Positions 38,550 through 46,415 of a DNA stretch of 64,000 nucleotides are shown one piece after another. The stretch comes from Cytophagales bacterium (GTDB lineage Bacteria > Bacteroidota > Bacteroidia > Cytophagales > Spirosomataceae). Positions within the stretch are counted from its first letter, which is position 1. Each line of letters starts with the position of its first letter. The translations under genes and the position numbers were made by a program. The DNA is taken from assembly GCA_013298025.1 (NCBI GenBank), contig JAAFJE010000008.1, positions 124,001 to 188,000 on the forward strand, written 5' to 3'. The notes under the pieces were generated by a model, which ran no database searches, had not been told where the DNA came from, and saw only the letters and a program-made list of their open reading frames with translations.

Positions 38550-38708
38550 GGAAAAAGATTTATTTTTTTTGAGTGGTTGCCTCATCTAACCTTACAAAGG
38601 TAAAAAATGTAACTATCGACTTATCCAGAACGCTGTTTTTTCCTCTATTTGAGCATTTTTCCAAGCTTCGTAGTAAAGGAGAAATACTTACACAAACGTA
38701 CAAAAACA

Positions 38709-38739
38709 AAAAAAGCAGACTTAATAAGACTGCTTTTTT
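38709..38739 (+). terminator. Terminator-like stem in the 38550-38880 gap
   Basis: AAAAAAGCAG (38709-38718) pairs with CTGCTTTTTT (38730-38739), with three more pairs inside after one mismatch. A and T runs on both sides allow use in both directions. A short open frame over it (38573-38764) is not credible as a gene. Apart from this the 331-nt gap holds nothing I can name. Confidence 0.75.
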
Positions 38740-38880
38740 GAATTACACTTCATCAACAAACTAAAAACCAAATAAAACTACTTTATAATTATCGTAGTCA
38801 ATCTGATAATATGAGAATAAAAGTAAAAAGAAAATTTTATTTTGTCAAAATACTTTTTCTCAAAATTTCAGATAAATTGC

Positions 38881-39039
38881 TGTAGGAGAAGGATTCGAAC
38901 CTCCACGGTGTAGTTAGGTATAGTACAAAATCTGGTGGTCAACCCCAGTCTGTCTTGCGACAGGCATTATACTAACTTTGTCCATGAATCACCACCCCCG
39001 AGACAGGAGGGCACGTCTGCCAAATTTCATCACCCTACA
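38881..39039 (-). tRNA. Unusual tRNA-like gene with a 90-nt structured variable region; GUC-type anticodon
   Basis: Reading the minus strand from 39039: 7-bp acceptor stem TGTAGGG / TCCTACA (one G-U), D arm with AAATTTGGCAGA loop carrying the GG pair, anticodon stem CCCTC / GGGGG, loop CTGTCTC (anticodon GTC at 39004-39002), and a T arm with stem GGAGG / CCTTC and loop TTCGAAT. The variable region (38994-38905) is 90 nt instead of 4-25. It starts and ends with GGTG / CACC, then a 10-bp stem (38977-38968 with 38922-38912, one bulged C), a hairpin CTGTC-GCAA-GACAG (38963-38950) and another based on CTGG / CCAG (38948-38932). No CCA is encoded. The next base is G, like the tRNA-Asp discriminator. 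The D arm resembles class II tRNA-Leu. A promoter lies 36 nt upstream. Function as a decoding tRNA is uncertain. Confidence 0.7.
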
Positions 39040-39074
39040 GTATTGTTGTCATTGTTTCGTTTAACTTGACGGTG

Positions 39075-39105
39075 CAAAATTAATCATAGCTTCACTATAT
39101 TGCAA
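39075..39105 (-). promoter_or_regulatory. Promoter of the tRNA-like gene (TTG-N20-TAATTTTG)
   Basis: On the minus strand, TTG (39105-39103) lies 20 nt before TAATTTTG (39082-39075). Transcription would start near 39068, about 30 nt before the mature 5' end. The spacing equals that of the tetR promoter and of the 51-aa gene promoter. Confidence 0.7.
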
Positions 39106-39255: not shown

Positions 39256-39726
39256 ATGGGAAAAAATCCAGAAATCGACGATATTGATTTAAAAATACTA
39301 GGCCTTTTGATGAACGATGCCAATATGCCTTATACCGAAATTGGCAAAAAAATTCATGTATCGGGCGGCACTGTGCACGTGCGTATGAACAAAATGGAGG
39401 AGGCTGGCATTGTCAAAGGCTCACAATTGATTGTGGACCACACCAAGCTCGGTTGGGATATTTCGGCATTTTTGGGGATTTACCTCGATAAAAGCTCTTT
39501 GTATGCCGAAGTGGCCGACCACCTCATGAAAATTCCTGAAGTAGTGAGCATCAATTACACTACGGGAATTTATTCCATTTTTGCTAAAATTGTCTGCCGT
39601 GACACCGTGCATTTAAGAGAAGTATTGCACGACAAAATTCAAAAAGTAGCGGGCATTCAGCGTACCGAAACCTTTATTTCCCTAGAAGAGTCGGTCAACA
39701 GGGCTGTGCCTTTTGCTAAAATGTAG
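39256..39726 (+). CDS. Lrp/AsnC family transcriptional regulator
   Basis: 156 residues. N-terminal winged HTH (DDIDLKILGLLMND then YTEIGKKIHVSGGTVHVRMN) and a C-terminal RAM/ligand-binding domain (SAFLGIYLDKSSLYAEVADH). Lrp-like proteins sense amino acids or other small ligands and form octamers on DNA. It starts 217 nt from the divergent tRNA-like gene and 242 nt before sufB; no target is evident. Confidence 0.9.
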   Translation: MGKNPEIDDIDLKILGLLMNDANMPYTEIGKKIHVSGGTVHVRMNKMEEAGIVKGSQLIVDHTKLGWDISAFLGIYLDKSSLYAEVADHLMKIPEVVSINYTTGIYSIFAKIVCRDTVHLREVLHDKIQKVAGIQRTETFISLEESVNRAVPFAKM

Positions 39727-42169: not shown

Positions 42170-45100
42170 TTATTCTATTAAGAGCTTTCCATTACTTTCA
42201 AAACTTCCATTTTGTAAAGTATATACATATACACCACGATTTAGTTGATGTAATGTAATTGTAGCTTTTTGTTCGAAAACACTTTCTAAAACTTTCTCTC
42301 CTATAGCATTATAGAGCGTAAAATAGGATTGCCCACTCTTATCAACAGAAAGAGTTAGGTGTTCTAATGTGGGGTTAGGATACAGTGTATAATTTACAGA
42401 ATGACTAGATCCATTTATATTATTACTTACGGTGTTGATTGTAAGATCTGTATGTGAAGAGCGATTGATAGCTAGAGTATTACTTGCAACACTAGTACAT
42501 CCATTATCAGTACAGGTAGCACTATAATTTGTGGTTGAATTAGGATTAACAGTAATTACATTTCCAGACATACCATTGCTCCAATTAATAGTCCCAGAGC
42601 ACCCTGTAGCAGTAAGTGTGGTGGGAGCGTTATTATTGAATGCACAAAACAACATACGAATAATCCAGTAATCGCTTGTATTTTTATCGGATTTGTTCTT
42701 GTCTGATTTATCTCCATTTGCATCAGATAGGGACGAACCGCCTAAAACAACTTCTCCTGACTCATTTGTTAGTAGCGTTGTAAGCATTTCTTCGTTATCT
42801 CCTCCATATGATTTATCCCATATTTTTGTTCCTGTTTCGTCAATTTTTACAATCCAATAATCGCTTGAACCTTTACTATTTTCGGATTTATCAAAACCTG
42901 CATTAGAGTAAGAATCACCTGCTAATAGATAACCTGTTTTAGTGGTTTTTATATTTCTTAGGTAATCATTATCGTTTCCTCCTAAACATTTATCCCAGAT
43001 TATATTTCCTACAGCATCTGTTTTTAGAATCCAAAAATCACTTTTACCTTTATTTACCACTGATTTATCACCTAGAGCAGTAGAAATAGAATACCCGCCT
43101 ATAATAAATCCACCATCATTTGCCAAACTCAAACCTCCTAAAATATCATCATCATTTCCTCCGAAAGTTTTATCCCAGATCTTATTTCCATTCGATGAGA
43201 TTTTCACAATCCAATAATCGTTTTTCCCTTTAGATAAGGCTGTTTTATTTCCATTAGTCAGACTTTCAGAAGTCCCCCCTAATAAGAAACTACCATCGTT
43301 TAGTACCAACATTTCTGTCAGAAAATCGTCATTAGTTCCACCAAAACTACTATCCCATAATTTATTCCCCAAAGCATCTATTTTCACAATCCAATAGTCA
43401 TTTCCTCCTTTTGATTCACTTGTTTTGTTTGAACTGATAATTGAAGAAGAATAGCCCCCCAGCAGATAGCCCCCATCAAAAGTTGGTATCATACAAGTAA
43501 GTATATCATCTTTATTACCTCCGAACGTTTTGTCCCAAATCACACTTCCTTTAGCATCAATTTTAATAATCCAGAAATCCATTCCTCCTCTACTATTTTG
43601 TGATTTTTCAAATCCAAATGGAGAATTAGAAGAACCTCCCAGTAACACACCTCCATCATTTGTGGCAAGCATACTTTTGAAGCGTTCAGTACCTTTTCCG
43701 CCATAATTTTTATCCCAAACCTTATTTCCTTTTAGGTCTAGTTTAGTAATCCAGTAATCAAAATTTCCTTTTTGCGGTTGGGATTTATCAGCTGCTATGA
43801 GAGAATTAGAGTATCCACCTACTAAGTAGCCATTAGTTGTAGCTATCATACTTGTAAAATTATCTTCTGCTGTTCCGCCAATTGTTTTATTCCATTGTTG
43901 CAGAAGTGGAGCATCACAGGTAACGTTGGCTGTTTGTATCATTGGAGGAAGTGGAGGGGTAGTAGCTGTAATGGTAAGACTTTCACTCTCATCGCCTATA
44001 CAGCCACCTAGATTACAGGTAGCTTTGAATGTTTGTGTACTATTAGCAACTAAACGAATAACAAAACCTTGAGAGCCATCAGACCAAGAAATTGTACCAT
44101 TAGGACACGAGAGTGCTGTTAATGTAACCATTTCTCCTTGACAGACACTTTGGTTGCTGGCATAAATACTAACTTTACTGGGTTTATCTACAACTTTTAC
44201 GGTAACACTATTGGAGGAATCGCCAGCAATACCATTTTGTACACATACAGCTCTAAAACTTTTACTTGTCTGTGCCTTTATCACAAGTGTAGTTCCAGTC
44301 GAGCCATTTGACCATTTTGTTTCATAGTTACCGCACCCCGTGGCTGTTAAGGTGACATTATAATCTTTACACACTTCAGTGCTGCTCACAGAAACATAAG
44401 GAGTTTTGTTTGTACTAATAACAATATTGTCGCTAGGCTTACTTACACACGCATCTTTTACGCAAGTTGCATAGTAACTTTTAGTATTGGTATTGTATTC
44501 AAGAAGGAGTGGGTTATCCGTGCTATTATTATTCCAAATAATAGTTCCATTACAACCATCTGCATATAAAGCTGTTTTAAATTGATTACAAACATCAAGT
44601 TTTACTATCCAATAATCATCTATCCCTCTGGAAAATTCGGTTTTATCCGCCGAACCACTAGAAAGCGAATACCCCCCGATTAAAACACCACCTTCTTGTG
44701 TGTAAATCATACCTGTAAGGTTTTCGTTGTTGAAGCCTCCCACATTTTTATCCCATATTATATCCCCTTTTTCGTTTATCTTAACAATCCAATAATCAGA
44801 ACCACCTTTACTCTCGACACTTTTATCGTAGCTTTTACTAGATTGAGAGTACCCTCCCAATAAATATCCGCCATCTGCTGTGAGTAAAACTTTGGTTAGT
44901 CTATCAGCATCATTTCCTCCTATAGTTTTTTCCCAATTCAGTTGACCTAGGTCATTAAAGTTGACAAGCCAGTAGTCTGAATCACCAAGATTTTCTCTTG
45001 TTCTCTCTCCTGATGCTCGCGAGAAAGAATATCCTACAAGCATGTAATTTCCTTTATCATCAGCAACCATGTCCATTGGTAATTCTCGGTCATTGCCACC

Positions 45101-46273
45101 AAATGTTTTATCCCATAGTTTATTACCAGAAGGGTCAATTTTTACTATCCAATAGTCGCTATCGCCTCTACAGCTTTCAGTCTTATCATTTTTAGCATTG
45201 GTAGCACTTGAACGTAAATTTTTTCCAATGCTCGAAATATCAATATTATTGTTTATCACGTCCGAATCAGAATAGCCTCCTAGTATAAACCCACCGTCTG
45301 GCAATTGTAATAAACAGGTGATTTTATCATTTTTATTTCCCCCAATAACTTTTTGCCACAAAATATCACCTTTATTATCTATTTTAATAGCCCAATAATC
45401 AAAATCGCCATTGGTAGGGTCTTGTGTAGAGCCTCCTAATAAAAAACCGCCATCTGTCGTTGAAATAATAGAGCCTAAGTCATCGTAGTTGTTTGTCCCA
45501 ATCGTTTTGTCCCACAATTTATTTCCATCTCTATCTATTTTTACCAGCCAAATATCAGAAGCTCCTAGTTTTTTTTGGCTTTTTTCCGAACTAATATCAG
45601 AATAAGAAAATCCTGCTATTAAAAAACCTCCATCAGAAGTTTGAAGTGTTTTTCTAGGAAAGTCATGGTCACTCCCTCCAAAGGTTTTATCCCATACTTT
45701 TTGTCCATTAGCATCGACTTTTATAACCCAATAGTCATAACTATCGGAGAACAAACTGCCCCTATTACTTTCGGATTTTTCTGCTCCAATCCCAGAAAGA
45801 GCATTTCCCGTAAGAATATAGCTCCCATCCGAAGTCAATAATAAATCGTTTAGGTTATCCTTACTACCACCTCCAAACGTTTTATCCCATTTAATCGAAA
45901 AAGTGGTATTACATATTTTTTTTTCTGAACGAACAGTTGGCACACTTGGGCTAGGCTTGACTAGCACTGTTATTGATGCACTAGAGTCACTAGATTCATT
46001 TCCTTGCCGACATACGGCCCTAAATGTTTTGGTACTAATTAACACTACATTTACCGAAGAACCTCTGTGTCCATCTGTCCATACAATAGTACCTCCTGTA
46101 CATCCAGATGCACTGAGCAAAACGCCAGTATTTTGACAAATACTGCTAGCAGAAGCGACAATCGTTGGAGGACTTGGCTTGGTTGTGACATTTTGAGGTG
46201 TCTGAGAAGAGATTATATTCGTGTTTTGCAAAAATAGATAGAGGCAACACAGTATTTGTAGAAATATTTTCAT
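42170..46273 (-). CDS. Very large T9SS-exported protein with two blocks of seven repeats and Ig-like modules
   Basis: 1,367 residues from ATG 46273, which starts a clear signal peptide (MKIFLQILCCLYLFLQ). It has two blocks of seven ~60-residue repeats, each built as WDKTFGGN, then DGGYLLGGYS, then a D(K)S...SRG...DYWIVK segment; the consensus is strong throughout. Between and around the blocks are about five Ig-like modules of the form C..GTI.WS.G with terminal CxxxxC. The C-terminus (residues about 1290-1367) is a T9SS type A sorting domain (YTLYPNP...GVYVYTLQNG). The set of seven repeats suggests two seven-bladed propellers. It is surface-delivered; function unknown. A short SSSHS-type linker precedes the sorting domain. 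Confidence 0.85.
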   Translation of the reverse strand: MKIFLQILCCLYLFLQNTNIISSQTPQNVTTKPSPPTIVASASSICQNTGVLLSASGCTGGTIVWTDGHRGSSVNVVLISTKTFRAVCRQGNESSDSSASITVLVKPSPSVPTVRSEKKICNTTFSIKWDKTFGGGSKDNLNDLLLTSDGSYILTGNALSGIGAEKSESNRGSLFSDSYDYWVIKVDANGQKVWDKTFGGSDHDFPRKTLQTSDGGFLIAGFSYSDISSEKSQKKLGASDIWLVKIDRDGNKLWDKTIGTNNYDDLGSIISTTDGGFLLGGSTQDPTNGDFDYWAIKIDNKGDILWQKVIGGNKNDKITCLLQLPDGGFILGGYSDSDVINNNIDISSIGKNLRSSATNAKNDKTESCRGDSDYWIVKIDPSGNKLWDKTFGGNDRELPMDMVADDKGNYMLVGYSFSRASGERTRENLGDSDYWLVNFNDLGQLNWEKTIGGNDADRLTKVLLTADGGYLLGGYSQSSKSYDKSVESKGGSDYWIVKINEKGDIIWDKNVGGFNNENLTGMIYTQEGGVLIGGYSLSSGSADKTEFSRGIDDYWIVKLDVCNQFKTALYADGCNGTIIWNNNSTDNPLLLEYNTNTKSYYATCVKDACVSKPSDNIVISTNKTPYVSVSSTEVCKDYNVTLTATGCGNYETKWSNGSTGTTLVIKAQTSKSFRAVCVQNGIAGDSSNSVTVKVVDKPSKVSIYASNQSVCQGEMVTLTALSCPNGTISWSDGSQGFVIRLVANSTQTFKATCNLGGCIGDESESLTITATTPPLPPMIQTANVTCDAPLLQQWNKTIGGTAEDNFTSMIATTNGYLVGGYSNSLIAADKSQPQKGNFDYWITKLDLKGNKVWDKNYGGKGTERFKSMLATNDGGVLLGGSSNSPFGFEKSQNSRGGMDFWIIKIDAKGSVIWDKTFGGNKDDILTCMIPTFDGGYLLGGYSSSIISSNKTSESKGGNDYWIVKIDALGNKLWDSSFGGTNDDFLTEMLVLNDGSFLLGGTSESLTNGNKTALSKGKNDYWIVKISSNGNKIWDKTFGGNDDDILGGLSLANDGGFIIGGYSISTALGDKSVVNKGKSDFWILKTDAVGNIIWDKCLGGNDNDYLRNIKTTKTGYLLAGDSYSNAGFDKSENSKGSSDYWIVKIDETGTKIWDKSYGGDNEEMLTTLLTNESGEVVLGGSSLSDANGDKSDKNKSDKNTSDYWIIRMLFCAFNNNAPTTLTATGCSGTINWSNGMSGNVITVNPNSTTNYSATCTDNGCTSVASNTLAINRSSHTDLTINTVSNNINGSSHSVNYTLYPNPTLEHLTLSVDKSGQSYFTLYNAIGEKVLESVFEQKATITLHQLNRGVYVYTLQNGSFESNGKLLIE

Positions 46274-46415
46274 GGTAATTAATATTATATGTGAGATTTT
46301 TAATTTTAACAAACTTACACAAAAAACATTTTAGTCTGTTTCTTAGTATTTAAAATTTAGGTACATAAATAGTCATTAATTATTGAGAAAGACCAAAAAC
46401 AACGAAGTTAATGCT

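Follow-up and report, generated by a model that had tools for sequence, protein, structure and literature searches.

A tRNA-like RNA beside an AsnC-type gene

In the window, by which we mean the whole 64,000-nucleotide stretch analysed here, a tRNA-like RNA is encoded on the minus strand (38879..39039, 161 nt including G73 and C74), divergent from a gene for an AsnC-type regulator on the plus strand (39256..39726, recognised with Pfam and NCBIfam profiles). The first-pass annotation had placed four tRNA arms here without naming a strand. All four are present, and the strand is the minus one: read from 39039 to 38881 it gives a full cloverleaf, followed by the discriminator G73 and an encoded C74 at 38880-38879. 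The 5' strand of the acceptor stem, UGUAGGG (39033..39039, with U1 and G2), pairs with UCCUACA (38881..38887, with C71 and A72). The D arm (39013..39030) has a 3-bp stem and a loop containing GG, the anticodon arm (38995..39011) a 5-bp stem, CCCUC-CUGUCUC-GGGGG, with the anticodon-like GUC at 39002..39004 and C38 at 39000, and the T arm (38888..38904) the loop UUCGAAU. The 7/3/5/5 stems and the G18G19 and TTCGA loops are those of an elongator tRNA. The earlier remark that the D arm resembles that of tRNA-Leu is borne out. At 38708..38739 an inverted repeat flanked by A and T runs, read from the sequence, is a candidate two-way terminator; a consensus scan reported no terminator.

ARAGORN called no tRNA or tmRNA in the window, and Rfam gave no tRNA or tmRNA match to it at the gathering threshold, tRNA giving none even up to E 10. 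The folding energy is not exceptional against shuffled sequences either (z of -0.10 on the plus strand and -0.73 on the minus strand), so the case that the RNA is real rests on its conservation and not on minimum free energy alone.

Distribution and structural conservation of the family

We collected 205 distinct member sequences, the window copy included, in part through a pattern scan. Among the matches listed by that scan are Cytophagales, Saprospiraceae, Chitinophagaceae and others, with Dyadobacter, Spirosoma, Emticicia, Algoriphagus, Cyclobacterium, Fulvivirga, Flammeovirga, Portibacter, Phaeodactylibacter and a Chitinophaga MAG named in the record titles. BLAST against 98 related genomes (matches better than about E 1e-5, tallied by hand from the table) found the RNA in 4/4 genomes of the genus, at 95% identity, in 46/56 of the rest of the family and in 21/38 of the rest of the order. 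Full-length matches within the family mostly have 71-94% identity; in the order's remaining families the similarity is often confined to the two ends, between which the middle is shorter. Copies were extracted from 60 fetched regions of related genomes, and tandem arrays of three to six copies occur at L062, L170, L149, L241, L244 and L069.

A search with a custom covariance model, which the first-pass annotation had proposed, was run over 395 genomes of the phylum with a model (R1) built from 30 diverse copies, only eight candidates being scored per genome. Among the 150 matches listed, members scoring at least 86 bits occur in 40 of the 395 genomes; non-members reach at most 69.5 bits, and the ones around 57 bits are as long as a tRNA-Leu. 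The 40 carriers comprise 14 of the 15 genomes of the source organism's order (its own family included), 23 genomes from three further families of its class, and three from a single family of another class.

Two alignments, A1 of 33 long forms and A2 of 30 diverse forms, were used to examine the structure. Of the 1132 cells in A1, 97.4% are paired, a share that drops to 47-61% once the strands are slid, and 17/35 pairs are double-changed, with differences on both sides; in A2 the figures are 99.7% of 720 cells, 52-63% and 14/24. Both double-change counts lie above every one of 500 shuffles; the A2 count of further pair types does not exceed shuffles (244/500 as high). Covariation supports the anticodon arm in both alignments, and the T arm recurs in A1, A2 and the parsed members, with an extra T-stem base in 25/33 long forms.

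The variable region is 90 nt long in the window (38905..38994) and ranges from 39 to 123 nt in parsed members, with a single exception of 7 nt. The 4-bp stem that the first-pass annotation saw at its base (38990..38993 with 38907..38910) is common to relatives and is 100% paired, three of its four pairs being double-changed in A1 and again in A2. Above it lies an internal loop with two conserved motifs, GGAYAAA (38977..38983) opposite CUAAC (38913..38917), and then an inner helix (38970..38976 with 38918..38925). A 10-bp stem had also been described in this region, with covariation in relatives as its proposed check: a helix of the variable arm does covary, but the register was wrong. The 10-bp register needs GUUA to pair with UAAC, and in A1 CUAA is invariant while the consensus of its partner is CGCA. 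The helix that covariation backs joins RNA positions 64-70 with 115-122, and all six pairs counted in it are double-changed in A1. Long forms add a hairpin (38950..38963) and a conserved GGGGUUGACCACC motif (38934..38946), both missing from short forms. The GCAA hairpin of the earlier description exists, but its loop sequence is not conserved in A1. Comparison across relatives shows that selection maintains the RNA's cloverleaf and the structure of its variable arm.

ARAGORN called members of the family in 0 of the 49 loci tried, and did call a 77-nt relative (L248 3338-3414, genome G071). This relative has the anticodon AUC, a 7-nt variable loop and no adjoining AsnC gene, and may be a reduced version of the RNA. 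We found no description of such an RNA in the literature searched, outside which most subscription journals lay. This is a real and widespread tRNA-like RNA family, undescribed in the papers and libraries that we searched.

Identity elements are kept and decoding features relaxed

The parser used to number the members required G73, GGYAG and TTCGA, so that the D-loop sequence GGYAG, which is also seen in the alignments, was itself a condition. It read 202 of the 205 distinct sequences; the other three have the T loop TTCAACT, the D loop GGCAAA and a T-loop insertion. All 205 end in GC, that is, G73 and C74. Among the 202, U35, C36, C38 and G2-C71 are invariant, G34 is present in 197 and U1-A72 in 201. 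At position 33, 163 members have U, 23 have G, 9 have A and 7 have C; at position 37, 195 have U, 5 have C, 2 have G and none has A. U33 followed by a purine at 37, as in an elongator tRNA, is thus not what the family carries. The pattern scan, which supplies 88 of these 202 rows, itself demanded GUCUC, and we therefore recounted the remaining 114 members. None of these departs from U35, C36, C38, G2-C71 or U1-A72. Each of the four bases occurs at position 33, 23 members having one other than U, and A is again absent from position 37. G34, U35, C36, C38, G73 and G2-C71 all occur together in 110 of the 114; it is G34 that differs in the other four.

C38 is one of the positions that AspRS reads. 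In the available parts of PMC9976931, AspRS is described as reading the anticodon, G73 and G2-C71, and G1-C72 of bacterial tRNA-Asp as serving AspRS identity. According to that source and PMC4206432 (each available in part), U1-A72 confers amidation of Asp-tRNA-Asn, GatCAB accepting the pair, and G1-C72 prevents amidation of Asp-tRNA-Asp. The RNA lacks G1-C72 and in 201/202 members has the pair that GatCAB accepts. Conservation by position splits accordingly: the other AspRS determinants and the GatCAB pair are kept and the decoding features lost. From this pattern we judge that the RNA is probably unable to read codons. The claim of the first-pass annotation that the RNA combines a long structured variable arm with the aspartate identity elements GUC and a G discriminator agrees with the alignments, the covariation and the member counts.

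The five members without G34 have CUC (twice) and UUC (once), which are Glu anticodons, and AUC (twice). The genome of the UUC member (G412) yielded no other copy and is without any asparagine synthetase match. In the lineages with Glu anticodons the RNA may use GluRS and serve glutamine synthesis, or may be decaying.

Normal tRNA-Asp(GUC) is encoded twice in the source genome, both genes having A37 and G1-C72. The genome's tRNA-Asn carries U1-A72 and, by eye, an extra U in the D loop (GGUUA), resembling a feature described as an antideterminant in tRNA-Asp (PMC9976931, available in part).

The AsnC neighbour and the promoter region

NCBIfam ranks AsnC first for the product of the divergent gene, with 157 bits against 74 for LrpA and 41 for Lrp, although this best family match lies under the AsnC equivalog cut-off of 227. 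An AsnC-type match is found near the RNA in 109 of 167 loci (106 of the 162 distinct first copies among them), and in 109/109 it lies upstream and divergent, at 122-245 bp; ten of the loci without it have less than 700 bp of upstream sequence. An AsnC homologue of at least 54% identity occurs in 40/40 carrier genomes and in 3/21 genomes of the class without the RNA, those three at 59-62%. E. coli K-12 has asnC and asnA in divergent orientation, 151 bp apart, and AsnC is described as activating asnA unless asparagine is present (PMC4482635, available in part). None of 20 fetched asnA or asnB regions had an AsnC match, so a direct swap with asnA is not seen inside the phylum. At 14 loci where AsnC lies apart from the RNA or no RNA was found, no RNA remnants lie beside AsnC. 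By eye, AsnC stays beside a sufB-like gene at L344, L349, L351 and L352, the RNA being elsewhere in the genome.

The Bacteroidetes -7 consensus is TAnnTTTG. An element of this form, TAATTTTG, lies 43 nt upstream of the RNA on the minus strand (39075..39082), and one occurs within 130 nt upstream in 87/110 copies, the window's included, where simple shuffling gives 10.8 on average. That the RNA has a promoter of its own, as the first-pass annotation held, is in keeping with this element, but a sigma-70 scan gave no clear site in the upstream region. The leader upstream of the RNA (39040-39080 in the window, for example) often shows by eye an inverted repeat around GTCAAG...CTTGAC.

The RNA occurs together with GatA and GatB

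We had predicted, ahead of the search, that the RNA goes with GatCAB. The two samples used, of 80 and 62 genomes, were our own picks from the 395; the smaller comprises 40 genomes with the RNA, 21 of the same class without it and G071, set aside for its short form, and 10 of the 56 same-family genomes, which had no BLAST match to the RNA, were left out of the GatB test. GatB is present in 40/40 carriers, and 20/21 genomes without the RNA have no match to it at E 1e-30. GatA splits in the same way at E 1e-80, with 40/40 carriers if we count G433, where the match is below the cut-off and a contig end truncates the gene. AsnRS is encoded in 62/62 genomes and GlnRS in 54/62. In all 54 genomes that encode both synthetases, RNA and GatB are either both present (34) or both absent (20); GatA accompanies GatB in 34/34 and is likewise missing in 20/20. 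Since AsnRS and GlnRS are both present, GatCAB has no known decoding role in 34 of the 40 carriers. The one genome that lacks the RNA and keeps GatB (G139) is without GlnRS, as is G071. GatB is over the cut-off in 16/18 sampled genomes of other classes without the RNA, where it has other work.

On a tree of AspRS from 30 genomes, the joint state of RNA and GatB changes six times, three of the changes being forced by well-supported branches, so the link between RNA and GatCAB is not a single event on that tree. Each of the 30 genomes encodes one bacterial AspRS. At the alignment position that we take to be the one where some non-discriminating enzymes carry His, genomes with the RNA have K, L or F and GatB-free genomes K, L, F or M, and none has His. 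The AspRS of GatB-free genomes should be discriminating, and residues of the same kinds in the carriers speak against a non-discriminating enzyme there, as far as such markers can indicate.

Ten GatB neighbourhoods, read by eye, showed no link to the RNA. Five of these regions have alaS-like ORFs near gatB, again by eye, and in 7/10 (L309-L315) a related thioredoxin-like DUF4369 protein adjoins it.

Asparagine synthetases

AsnA is found in 3/40 carriers and 8/21 genomes without the RNA. By the curated AsnB family the two groups do not differ, an AsnB-type protein over the family cut-off being present in 35/40 and 18/21, and twice in the source genome. A difference appears with a class of our own making, the E. 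coli-type AsnB, defined by a two-piece match and a length of 528-578 aa as read from the match table: it occurs in 0/40 carriers and 15/21 other genomes. AsnA or this type of AsnB is present in 3/40 and 17/21, respectively, so that only our sub-class separates the groups. Most AsnB-type proteins of carriers measure 590-690 aa; in G093 there is an additional one of 571 aa, of borderline type. Five carriers have neither AsnA nor an AsnB-type match over the cut-off (G412, G245, G361, G007 and G034), and in G115 the RNA, GatB and asparagine synthetase matches are all missing.

A proposed role in asparagine supply

We consider the RNA a probable substrate of AspRS and GatCAB, charging and amidation being read from its identity elements and from the company it keeps. 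The interpretation that we favour, at somewhat better than even confidence, is that of a non-decoding tRNA-like carrier for the formation of asparagine by AspRS and GatCAB, under the control of AsnC. AspRS would attach aspartate to the RNA, and GatCAB, accepting U1-A72, would amidate it to asparagine; the product would not be used at the ribosome, and the asparagine would be released or passed on. When asparagine runs low, AsnC would switch on the RNA, just as it activates asnA in E. coli. That the RNA serves asparagine supply is less secure, at slightly under even confidence. In the most specific form of the proposal, the RNA would be a dedicated non-decoding cofactor, its gene standing in the place of asnA beside AsnC, and would make AspRS and GatCAB together serve as an asparagine synthetase that makes free asparagine and feeds AsnRS, replacing the usual enzyme; this we offer tentatively.

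Covariation, the pattern of identity elements, co-occurrence with GatA and GatB, the divergent AsnC gene and the difference in synthetase sub-class would all fit such a carrier. Against it stand the AsnB-type proteins in 35 of the 40 carriers, the missing G1-C72, the five members without G34 and G115 with neither RNA, GatB nor synthetase, as well as the lack of AsnC at the 20 asnA and asnB regions, its presence in 3 of the 21 genomes without the RNA and a match to AsnC under the cut-off. If the proposal is true, many Bacteroidota keep an RNA as a carrier for amino-acid synthesis and not for decoding, and this helps account for the retention of GatCAB in some bacteria that have AsnRS as well as GlnRS, a pattern already in print and attributed to synthesis on tRNA-Asn (PMC4206432, available in part). 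The results also show that a broad tRNA-like family escapes a tRNA finder (ARAGORN) and Rfam.

This published attribution supplies one alternative, which we regard as unlikely: GatCAB would be retained for asparagine formation on ordinary tRNA-Asn that a non-discriminating AspRS has loaded, the Bdellovibrio arrangement, with the RNA as a regulator or sensor of the route. The combination of AsnRS, GlnRS and GatCAB is known, some Bacteroidetes included (PMC4206432, available in part), and the source genome's tRNA-Asn does carry U1-A72. However, its extra D-loop U looks like an antideterminant, the single AspRS bears no sign of relaxed specificity at the position examined, and the alternative leaves unexplained both the joint gain and loss of RNA and GatCAB and the presence of GUC and U1-A72 on one RNA.

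We give a similarly low weight to a second possibility, that the charged RNA, Asp-RNA or Asn-RNA, gives up its amino acid to an acceptor outside the ribosome, for example the cell wall, a lipid or a peptide. An RNA that is charged and does not decode would suit such a task, and there is a precedent: staphylococci have a non-decoding tRNA-Gly that is charged and serves the cell wall, although its amino acid and pathway are others and it has no long arm. Yet the most recurrent neighbour of the RNA is a regulator, and no transferase was recognised among the recurring neighbours, some of which went through profile searches.

The first-pass annotation had also named a tRNA-derived regulator. As an uncharged RNA that binds AspRS or AsnC this is conceivable and, in our estimate, improbable: the AsnC gene is divergent from the RNA, and an AspRS-binding mRNA mimic is known in yeast (PMC9976931, available in part), but contact with the anticodon-binding domain would make the 7-bp acceptor stem, U1-A72, G2-C71, G73 and C74 superfluous, and the link to GatCAB would go unexplained.

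Very little speaks for the annotation's suggestion of an additional tRNA-Asp or other elongator tRNA for decoding, since the canonical D and T loops and GUC are offset by a position 33 with a base other than U in 39 of the 202 members, a dominant U37, the extra T-stem base and the two normal tRNA-Asp genes. Least credible is its last suggestion, that the 90-nt insert is an intron removed from a tRNA: the length of the insert does vary, but its base stem covaries and its internal motifs are conserved, and even then the loop and acceptor would be unfit for a decoder.

Comparison with known systems, and other features of the genome

The proposed carrier is close to tRNA-dependent asparagine synthesis on tRNA-Asn (the transamidosome; Deinococcus, Thermus and Bdellovibrio), which shares AspRS, GatCAB and U1-A72 and also occurs in bacteria with AsnRS and GlnRS (PMC4206432, available in part). 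There the known carrier is a decoding tRNA-Asn with a non-discriminating AspRS, whereas here it would be a separate RNA with an Asp anticodon, so that a discriminating AspRS would suffice. In the asnC-asnA arrangement of E. coli, as here, the AsnC gene is divergent from a gene for making asparagine at a similar distance, but here that gene encodes an RNA and not a synthetase. tmRNA is a tRNA mimic. The tRNA-like structures of viruses and mRNAs are mimics as well, and ordinary synthetases charge or bind many of them (PMC9976931, available in part); unlike all of these, the RNA described here has no mRNA part and no permutation, and has a complete anticodon arm and a probable promoter of its own. 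Class II tRNAs, allo-tRNAs and tRNA-Sec also combine a cloverleaf with a variable-arm stem, and G73 and the long variable arm matter in tRNA-Sec (PMC7609411, available in part), but none of them matches a variable region of 39-123 nt with conserved motifs and relaxed positions 33 and 37.

Elsewhere in the source genome (C8:112500-118500, L087 986-2740), tandem units of about 336 bp each consist of an altered tRNA-Pro-like sequence that overlaps with an ORF of about 84 aa, by eye similar to a GIY-YIG protein, and the series closes with an intact tRNA-Pro. This weak tRNA array is a matter separate from the tRNA-like RNA. In the window itself, a 1380-aa ORF at 42170-46312 contains, by eye, many near-repeats (WDKTFGG blocks) and perhaps encodes a secreted repeat protein.
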